From the NCBI GenBank assembly GCA_028223395.1, contig JAOIUG010000010.1:1-46790 (forward strand): a stretch of DNA of 46,790 bases, written 5' to 3'. The notes beneath the pieces were generated by a model. The model was not told the origin of the DNA. It searched no databases and worked only from the letters and a program-made list of their open reading frames with translations. Source of the DNA: Shewanella sp. (GTDB lineage Bacteria > Pseudomonadota > Gammaproteobacteria > Enterobacterales > Shewanellaceae). Made by a program: the position numbers and the translations under genes. Positions 130 through 36,623 of this stretch are shown piece by piece. Numbering within the stretch: position 1 is the stretch's first letter; every line of letters begins with the position of its first letter.

Positions 130-196
130 TGGCCAATTTTACCATGAAGATCTCCTGTCGTATTAAGGAGAATAACCACTTACAGGATTGTGCTCG

Positions 197-529
197 ATGA
201 GTGACATCAAAGCATCATTAGATAACGTCAATATCGCGATTGACCAGCTGCTAGAGCATGCGGCGGATCTGCTGTTTGAAGATGAAAAATCAGATACCTT
301 GGTATTTAAATTGCATGAAGCCATTAGTGCACGTCAACATTTCATTGATCAGCTCGTGGGCGATAGCCAATTTGAAGATAAACAGTACCTTCAGCAACAA
401 GTGAGTCTGACTGAAAAGTTTGCACAGCAAGCCACAATAATACGCGTTGATCGCGAAGCCCTATTGCGCGGGATGCGTAAAGGTCAGCAGCAAACCAACT
501 TATATAAAACAATAAACGCAAAGAGGTAA
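197..529 (+). CDS. FlaI/FliT-like small flagellar protein
   Basis: This 110-residue, mostly helical, acidic protein has no signal peptide or membrane segment. It sits between fliD and fliS, the slot occupied by flaI in Vibrio and by FliT-like export chaperones elsewhere. Such proteins are thought to hold the cap protein FliD before export, but the sequence is divergent, so the function rests on position. I chose ATG 197 because AGGA at 184-187 is well spaced. An in-frame TTG at 188 is possible but less likely. The stop is 6 bases before the fliS start, so the two are co-transcribed. Confidence 0.65.
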   Translation: MSDIKASLDNVNIAIDQLLEHAADLLFEDEKSDTLVFKLHEAISARQHFIDQLVGDSQFEDKQYLQQQVSLTEKFAQQATIIRVDREALLRGMRKGQQQTNLYKTINAKR

Positions 530-535
530 GTATTT

Positions 536-935
536 ATGAGAGGATCGCTTCAGTCATATCGCAAAGTGGCACTTGAAAGCACCATTGCCGTTGCATCACC
601 ACATAAAGTGATTCAAATGATGTTTTCAGGCGCCTTAGAGCGTTTGGCGCAGGGACGTTATGCTATTGTCCCTGCGCCAAACGCTCTAAGGGGTAAGTTT
701 AGGCAAGGCCATAGGCATTGTTGCGGGGCTAAACAGTAGCCTTAATATGGATACCGAAGGTGAGATTGCGGCAAATTTGAATGCACTGTATGACTTTATG
801 TTGCAAAAGATCTCCCAAGCGAACATGAATAACGACATTAATGCTATTGATGAAGCGGCCAGCGTGCTGCGGATCATTAAAGAAGCATGGGATACCATCC
901 CCGTTGAGCAGCACGAACTTTCCTCAGAAAGCTAA
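536..935 (+). pseudogene. fliS: fliS flagellin chaperone, disrupted by an inverted-copy insertion/frameshift
   Basis: FliS binds the flagellin C-terminus in the cytosol and prevents premature polymerisation. The start (MRGSLQSYRKVALEST, residues 1-16) through ALERLAQGRYAI (to residue 44, base 667) is normal FliS. The remainder (VSLGKAIGIVAGLNSSLNMD, then EIAANLNALYDFML, to TAA 933-935) is also normal FliS but in another frame, from base 693. Between them, bases 668-691 are an exact reverse complement of bases 633-656, in place of the roughly 27 bases expected for a segment like EQGDIAAKG. The first frame stops at TAG 737-739. The second has an in-frame TAA at 687 just upstream and no good start before ATG 747. 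As written, no full-length FliS (about 130-135 residues) can be made. The cause could be a true mutation or a hairpin-derived sequencing or assembly error. Confidence 0.85.
633..691. repeat. Perfect 24-bp inverted repeat with 11-nt loop inside fliS
   Basis: Bases 633-656 and 668-691 are exact reverse complements, separated by the 11-base loop GTTATGCTATT (657-667). The left arm is native fliS coding sequence (ALERLAQG region). The right arm replaces native sequence and causes the frameshift. The right edge falls at TAAGGGGTA, where a native AAGGGG context would give microhomology for rejoining. The mRNA would form a very stable hairpin with no U tract, so it is not a normal terminator. Confidence 0.95.
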
Positions 936-32614: not shown

Positions 32615-34216
32615 CTAGGCTTTCACTTTGAACAAGTAGTGATCGCCAGGTAGTAAGGTTGCAGGTACGCTTTGCTGCTCAGTGTGTAAGTTAGAGACCA
32701 CCATGCCCAGTTGTTCGATTTTATTAATGAGACTTGGGCTCAGTTTTTCGATGTTATTGAGTAGCTTTATATCATCACAGGAAAAGGTGATCGTTAAGTT
32801 GGGCTTATCCCTGACAGGCTCGGCTTGTTTGGCATGAGTGGTGATCAACAACGGAATGTTAGACAGGGTAAATTTGAGTCTTAGCACCCAAAGCTCAGAT
32901 CGTCGCTCAGATCCTGATAAATCACTTTTATCTCGTTCAAAATGCCCTTCAAACTGCTCATAAGTATGTGAAATCGAGTAAGGCAAAGTAAAAAACCAGT
33001 GTTCACAGTCCTCTTTTACGCCAGAATGTTGTTGGTATAGGCTGAAATGGTTCAGTAATTCTATAAGAGGCTGTTGCAAGTTTAAGCGCGCGATTTGCTG
33101 AGCGAGTTTAGGCGATAAGCCTAAATAAGTTTGCAGCAGGTTAAGTTTATCGTTAAGTGGCGTCAGTGTTACTGGATCCGACGCTTTTTTCCCTAATAAC
33201 CACTGGCATAAAAAGAGTAACGTATTAGCATGATCTGGTGACGGAGCATGCCAGTGAGTAGGCTGGATATTTAAGCGGGCAAAGCTGAGTAACGCATGTT
33301 GTAGTTGTTGAGGATCGCTTAGCGAAATGAGGGTTTCAGGTAACAACTTAGGTAACGCATGCAAGAGCGTTCGTTTTAAGAGAGCGTTGGTGAGATTGTG
33401 CTTGTCACTGCACTGAGGTAATGCACCAGCCTTAGCTAAGGCGAGTGATAAAAAATCCGCTGCCACCTTATGCTCACCTTTAGTACTTGTAAGATTAGAT
33501 CTTGGCTCCATGGCTTTAGGGGCCTGCTCGAGTTGTGTCAAAAATTGACGGTAGTAAGAACTTACACTTGTTTTGGGCGCCGTGATCTCAGGCGATGTGG
33601 ATATGGAATGAGCCAATGGCGCAGTATCTGTGTGGCGACACTTAGCTGTGATCTCAACAGTGGTTAAAATAGGAGAAAGCTCAAGTAACAGTTGTTGCTC
33701 TTGAGCTTTTATCGCAACAGAAAACGCTCCCTTTATAAAACCTGCTGGAGCAGAAAAAGCGAAACAAAGCCCATTGTTAAAACGTAACTGTTTTGCAGTG
33801 ATAATGGCATTAGGCAGTCGGTATCCATGAGGTTTTGTCGCTAACTTTAATACGCCATTTGTCATTGTTGGATAGCGTTTGATGAAGGAAAGCAGCGTAC
33901 TTGGAACAGCAACAAACACAGGCGGGCCTAATGAGAGTAGTTGGGCAGGCGTGGATACACTGGCGAGCGCATGTGGTTGCACTACACTTAAAAGAAAGGC
34001 GTGAGCGTTAGTAAGATGTACTGAGCTTAATGTTGAGTTGGATGCAGCCTCAAGTTTTATCGGCTCAGATCTGCCCGCCACATGAGCCAATAGCCCCTCA
34101 TTATTATGCGTGAGCGTCACCGGGAGTAGCGATGTCGAGCTCGATATGGGTAAAACACTGGTCGCAGGTTTACTCAGCGGAGTGGGGCGAGATCCTGACG
34201 GGGGAAGATGGTTCAA
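32615..34216 (-). CDS. FliK-like hook-length-control-domain protein
   Basis: This 533-residue protein has no signal peptide or membrane helix. The N-terminal part is Ser/Thr/Pro/Leu-rich (about 1-230) and the middle is helical. The C-terminal domain (about 410-533, with HWFFTLPYSISHTYEQFEGHF split over its start, LWVLRLKFTLSNIPLLITTH, and SLINKIEQLGMVVSNLHTEQ) resembles the FliK C-terminal domain as found in Pseudomonas/Shewanella FliK-like proteins. TTG 34216 is the likely start, with TGAGG 6 bases before it. The first internal Met comes far later. Pairing with the FlhB-tail gene suggests a role in export substrate switching. Similarity to true FliK is low, so confidence is moderate. Confidence 0.7.
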   Translation of the reverse strand: MNHLPPSGSRPTPLSKPATSVLPISSSTSLLPVTLTHNNEGLLAHVAGRSEPIKLEAASNSTLSSVHLTNAHAFLLSVVQPHALASVSTPAQLLSLGPPVFVAVPSTLLSFIKRYPTMTNGVLKLATKPHGYRLPNAIITAKQLRFNNGLCFAFSAPAGFIKGAFSVAIKAQEQQLLLELSPILTTVEITAKCRHTDTAPLAHSISTSPEITAPKTSVSSYYRQFLTQLEQAPKAMEPRSNLTSTKGEHKVAADFLSLALAKAGALPQCSDKHNLTNALLKRTLLHALPKLLPETLISLSDPQQLQHALLSFARLNIQPTHWHAPSPDHANTLLFLCQWLLGKKASDPVTLTPLNDKLNLLQTYLGLSPKLAQQIARLNLQQPLIELLNHFSLYQQHSGVKEDCEHWFFTLPYSISHTYEQFEGHFERDKSDLSGSERRSELWVLRLKFTLSNIPLLITTHAKQAEPVRDKPNLTITFSCDDIKLLNNIEKLSPSLINKIEQLGMVVSNLHTEQQSVPATLLPGDHYLFKVKA

Positions 34217-36484: not shown

Positions 36485-36515
36485 TCAATAAGCTTAGGAA
36501 ATAAATCAATGTAAT

Positions 36516-36546
36516 AAAAAGCCAGAAGATGATCTTCTGGCTTTTT
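36516..36546. terminator. Bidirectional rho-independent terminator
   Basis: A perfect 14-bp stem: AAAAAGCCAGAAGA (36516-36529), loop TGA, TCTTCTGGCTTTTT (36533-36546). The A run on one side and T run on the other make it work on both strands. It separates the convergent response-regulator gene (+) and the peptide transporter gene (-). Confidence 0.95.
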
Positions 36547-36623
36547 ATTATCTCAATTCAATAATCATTAGCGTGTTCTGCCACACGCTATAACGATTAT
36601 CGAACCTTATTACTGCTTACAAC

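Follow-up and report, generated by a model that had tools for sequence, protein, structure and literature searches.

The polar fliS gene near the start of the window, by which we mean the whole stretch of 46,790 nt that was analyzed, is interrupted by a perfect 24-nt hairpin whose downstream arm stands where related genomes carry native fliS codons. We consider it likely that one short-range template switch in the cell made this hairpin and inactivated the gene. The two arms, at positions 633-656 and 668-691 of the forward strand, are exact reverse complements at 24 of 24 nt and are separated by an 11-nt loop at 657-667, which bears out the claim of the first-pass annotation that a 24-base stretch of fliS reappears as an exact inverted copy 11 bases downstream. 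The upstream arm is homologous to the corresponding codons of relatives and is the native source, the loop likewise aligns with relatives as native fliS sequence, and the downstream arm is the copy, lying where relatives carry 26 native nt.

The consequence for the reading frame can be followed by translation. The fliS frame opens at ATG 536, continues through 44 native FliS codons (536-667) and then through 23 foreign codons, and terminates at a stop at 737-739, giving a truncated product of 67 codons, of which 44 are native; the part of its tail that follows the copied arm is read out of frame from native fliS sequence (692-739). The remainder of FliS, 81 codons followed by a stop at 933-935, is encoded on the same strand in a different frame (690-935). 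Both pieces match the Pfam FliS family (PF02561), as had been proposed from the two differently framed flanks: the 5′ piece at family positions 2-36 (E 3.2e-5, 24.6 bits, below the curated cut-off of 26.7), and the 3′ piece at positions 45-114 or 47-114, with an E value of 6.6e-22 for 693-932. The locus thus resembles the family in both of its parts and differs from it in that no single open frame of the window contains the whole domain, which is shared between two frames. No further stop interrupts the 3′ part, its earliest in-frame ATG is at 747, and the 240 nt downstream of the inverted arm align with seven relatives free of gaps and stops. Between the 5′ part and the same relatives we count 3 to 10.5 nonsynonymous differences. 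The intact polar FliS of one of these relatives, G095, matches the solved FliS chains 6ch3, 3iqc, 5maw, 1vh6, and 1orj.

The gene belongs to the Shewanella polar flagellar cluster. In S. oneidensis, the gene order is fliD-SO3234-fliS (PMC3120886), and the gene at 188-529 (forward strand), immediately upstream of the broken frame, occupies the SO3234 position, an assignment made by position only; no Pfam match was found for 191-526 at E 0.1. Downstream, at 1321-2754 on the same strand, is an unbroken flrA-like regulator with FleQ and Sigma54_activat domains, which is found in one piece when compared with G095 and with a second related genome, G080. General decay of the flagellar cluster was considered and rejected, since fliS is the sole split frame in both comparisons. 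With G095, 40 of 41 matched frames (43 frames listed) are in one piece, and the same count, 40 of 41, was obtained with G080 (55 listed), fliS being the exception each time. The frames in this test are open stretches of at least 100 codons with a match rather than proven genes, and the test seeks a second piece elsewhere, not full coverage.

An inverted repeat of this length is not expected by chance. When the 46,790 nt were simulated 10 times under a Markov-1 model, with loops of up to 60 nt allowed, the longest perfect arm was 12 nt, and the second-longest arm in the window itself is 19 nt (36512-36550, 1-nt loop). This second palindrome falls in no open frame of 100 aa and is perhaps a transcription terminator. 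As RNA, the hairpin in fliS is predicted to fold with -62.8 kcal/mol for 121 nt (z -8.6). When the arm was searched against the assembly as DNA, it turned up at no further site; the next best match has an E value of 0.957. A transposon, or a duplicate of the arm at another site, was accordingly rejected: the block has fewer bases than the native segment that it replaces, and the search located its sequence at this site alone, in agreement with the earlier statement that no transposon accounts for the change.

Replacement of a native block

By fliS DNA, G080, G095, and G123 come closest, at 74-76% identity. We aligned the block with these three and with G019, G122, G021, and G124, leaving out G059, G048, and G046. 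In five relatives, the distance from codon 44 to the GTG that opens the conserved VSLGKA motif is 27 nt, encoding EQNNLELKG, vs 25 nt between codon 44 and the corresponding GTA in the window. With the last base set aside, 26 native nt correspond to 24 nt in the window, a net change of -2. The first-pass annotation had held that native codons were replaced with a shift of frame, and this holds, as 26 native bases gave way to 24 while the flanks align with all seven relatives; its guess at the lost codons, approximately EQGDIAAKG, does not agree with the EQNNLELKG read in the nearest relatives.

The content of the block was compared both with the native sequence and with the inverted source. Against the native 26 nt of the seven relatives, the block requires 13-16 edits, and it is no closer than shuffled blocks, which average 15.6 edits (sd 1.4; 2000 shuffles, compared with G095). 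Only 3-7 edits separate it from the upstream arm of each of the same seven genomes once that arm is reverse-complemented. A block as distant as a shuffle from the native sequence and close to the reverse complement of the arm indicates that a reverse-complement copy took the place of the native block. We note that ungapped mismatch counts for the gene's remaining 320 windows of 26 nt have means of 6.0-8.2 and reach maxima of 12-15, so distance by itself does not make the block an outlier. At the level of sequence, what distinguishes it is the exact inverted match. The comparison with the fliS of the closest relatives thereby places the loss of native sequence and the gain of the inverted arm at one site.

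The alignment also bears on the sequence that preceded the change, which we reconstruct from relatives of which the closest is 76% identical over fliS. At the outer end of the block, all seven relatives carry AAGG, matching the CCTT found at window positions 633-636. Since this AAGG, like the first G of the copied arm, is native in 7/7 relatives, the copied length is between 19 and 24 nt. Over ten bases, complementarity in the seven relatives is 5-7/10 at the outer end and 2-3/10 at the inner end. The complementarity seen in the relatives is weak and reveals no strong quasipalindrome at the site, which counts against the template-switch account. We also tried the pN/pS of the 3′ piece as a test of the age of the break and found it uninformative, the relatives being too distant: values for the window vs the seven relatives were 0.135-0.165 for pN and 0.74-0.98 for pS, and G095 vs G122 gave 0.11/0.85.

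Origin of the hairpin

The loss of native sequence and the gain of the inverted arm at one place, with no other copy of the arm in the assembly, make a one-step local template switch the most economical account. Under this account, a single switch during DNA synthesis would have written the reverse complement of approximately 19-24 nt of fliS into a site 11 nt away, and the copy would have replaced 26 native nt to yield the perfect 24-nt hairpin and the -2 change of frame. The most likely starting point of the switch is the outer end, at which CCTT of the arm could have paired with the native AAGG as a 4-nt microhomology. The nascent minus strand would then have taken the other strand as template, extended as far as the loop, and gone back; the distribution of complementarity suggests such an outer start on the other strand followed by a return. 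We infer the single event, its outer start, and its setting in the cell from what is observed directly, namely, the inverted copy, the missing native block, and the broken frame.

The event in the window would be an ordinary member of the known class of quasipalindrome and template-switch mutations: the block reproduces a source close by as its exact reverse complement, the native target is replaced, and the flanks remain in register. Quasipalindrome-associated template-switch mutations have been described in E. coli at a thyA hotspot and with the lacZ reporters QP5 and QP6 (PMC7202029). As in the window, a local template switch perfects an inverted repeat in these cases; as described there, however, an imperfect inverted repeat exists beforehand, whereas the complementarity in relatives of the window, at the outer end, is no more than weak. 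The E. coli cases are also backed by genetics, whereas ours is deduced from sequence. Template-switch mutations defined by four switch points have been reported to create perfect hairpins in microRNA and rRNA genes (PMC8794818). The likeness is close, with a reverse-complement copy placed beside its source to give a perfect stem in one event, but those cases come from phylogenies of RNA genes and the present one from one assembly in which a protein gene is disrupted. In the Saccharomyces lineage, switching between inverted-repeat arms is likewise reported to have caused multinucleotide changes in protein genes (PMC8604942); the arms described there were homogenized within coding genes, whereas the frame of fliS was lost.

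The main alternative is that a polymerase switched templates in vitro, during whole-genome amplification or PCR (for example, in multiple displacement amplification, MDA, of a single cell). We regard this as a serious possibility, if an unlikely one, and we grade no differently its corollary that the product was fixed in the consensus through the few molecules covering a region near a contig end. The event is known from one assembly consensus of one genome. That assembly comprises 2,053,915 bases in 146 contigs, with a completeness of 52.58 and a contamination of 0.09, and the presence among the listed contigs of lengths of 85, 82, and 73 kb despite a completeness of approximately 53% would fit a single-cell genome. 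The break in fliS is approximately 630 bp from the end of its 46.8-kb contig, which is contig 13 of the assembly. MDA is reported to generate mainly inverted chimeras, more than 70% of them primed at 2-21 nt of complementarity, and these resemble the event in the window in having an inverted copy, a loss of sequence, and short complementarity at the junction (PMC1855051). The chimeras described in that report, however, join two segments, and hairpin self-priming and template switching are excluded there as major routes (PMC1855051). A chimera of that kind has a single inverted junction with a deletion, whereas the copy in fliS goes out and back within 24 nt, with two junctions and the register regained. 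A double event in vitro may be a source of two junctions.

The rest of the assembly was surveyed for similar structures. Across 357 kb, covered in stretches no longer than 47 kb, we found no inverted repeat of at least 18 nt other than local hairpins, which counts against an artefact. In 41 stretches amounting to 441,167 bases (21% of the assembly, including 2,939 N), four repeats have arms of at least 16 nt with loops of up to 200 nt; the fliS repeat (24 nt, loop 11) is the longest of them and the only one with a loop above 4 nt, the other three having loops of 1-4 nt. Because the frame is broken at the fliS repeat, it is not counted as lying within an open frame, and that tally does not distinguish it. 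Further hairpins appear with arms of 14-15 nt and loops of 3-10 nt. As controls, 448,000 bases of G095 contain seven repeats of 16-19 nt, three of them with loops of 16-65 nt, and 60,000 bases of G080 contain none with arms of at least 16 nt and loops of up to 200 nt. An ordinary genome does hold 16-nt repeats with longer loops, none as long as 24 nt. The notion of an assembly full of inverted artefacts was dropped, as no such excess was seen in the 21% sampled, and the intactness of 40 of the 41 matched reading frames also argues against an artefact. The single template switch first proposed for this locus stands as the most economical account, and it probably took place during replication in the cell rather than in vitro.

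Two further kinds of explanation were considered. A small deletion or insertion plus substitutions, occurring as separate events, could have built the arm stepwise or by chance. The divergence from the nearest relatives is high, with many substitutions throughout the gene and other 26-nt windows reaching the mismatch maxima given above, but the perfect 24-nt arm is twice as long as the longest in 10 simulations and the block is no nearer to the native sequence than a shuffle while its flanks align; we give this explanation almost no weight. Alternatively, the hairpin could be functional, serving for ribosome bypass, for a split FliS (stop 737-739, re-initiation at ATG 747), or as a motility switch. 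The great predicted stability of the RNA hairpin would suit such a role, as would the position of the following in-frame ATG, the start of 62 codons, only 7 nt beyond the early stop, and the preservation of the 3′ part of fliS, which has no further stop or gap. Against this, the hairpin is absent from all seven aligned relatives, and each of the 128 other genomes of the genus that were searched has a stop-free FliS match; bypass of the entire stem would delete conserved residues, and an undamaged 3′ part is equally explained by a recent loss or an artefact. A functional hairpin is, in our view, very improbable. Hardly less so is a real allele kept by selection, either as an off state of the polar flagellum in an organism with two flagellar systems or as a hairpin-tuned split FliS using the same stop (737-739) and ATG (747).

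If the template switch did occur in the cell, the locus is a clean natural case in which one short switch knocks out a bacterial gene and builds a long perfect hairpin, in a genus where all 128 other genomes searched have at least one unbroken FliS. The case illustrates that comparison with relatives separates a template switch from a plain indel, and that a frameshift of this kind seen only in an assembly needs reads before a pseudogene is called.

FliS in the genus and in the rest of the assembly

All 128 relatives of the genus have a FliS match above the cut-off, with a best E value of 8.0e-34 or lower, and in all 128 the best match is stop-free and covers 111 or more of the 115 positions; polar and lateral copies are counted together in these figures. 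Loss of all FliS was not seen among the 128 other genomes of the genus searched. A DNA match to the fliS of the window at E 0.001 was found in 114/128 relatives, the other 14 being too far by DNA. G080 and G095 each have two FliS matches among the matches listed.

The assembly itself has a second, unbroken FliS, encoded in one frame of 126 aa on a separate contig (C111:5583-5930) and 31% identical to the polar FliS of G095 over 115 aa. By inspection rather than by family search, the region C111:4083-7430 of this 7.5-kb contig holds a fliD-like gene, the unbroken FliS, and a fliK-like gene. With FliS beside fliD- and fliK-like genes, this set is probably the lateral (second) flagellar system. 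The fliD-like protein of the contig contains a run of 17 aspartates.

In S. oneidensis, FliS binds both flagellins in a two-hybrid test, and FliS prevents the polymerization of flagellin in the cytosol (PMC3120886). Judged by its sequence, the 67-codon product of the broken gene should be inactive as a flagellin chaperone. A defect in motility is predicted on this ground, in an assembly where a second, unbroken FliS is present.

Several other features of the assembly were noted in passing. No 16S rRNA was found in it; contig C25 (2,939 bases) consists wholly of N, so that the 16S may have been withheld, and we set its absence aside as a clue to the type of assembly. A full-length 23S rRNA stands alone on a 3,369-bp contig (G000:C14:1-3369, G000 being the assembly studied here). 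At L075:18564-18609 (G000:C1), there is a perfect inverted repeat that has 21-nt arms, a 4-nt loop, and no T run following it and that is situated between a 350-aa frame that by inspection is tyrosine recombinase-like and a 168-aa frame. Within the window, a 533-aa frame on the reverse strand (32615-34216) is approximately 41% identical to its G095 counterpart; most of its neighbors are 70-97% identical to theirs, and a few others are low, at 31-54%.
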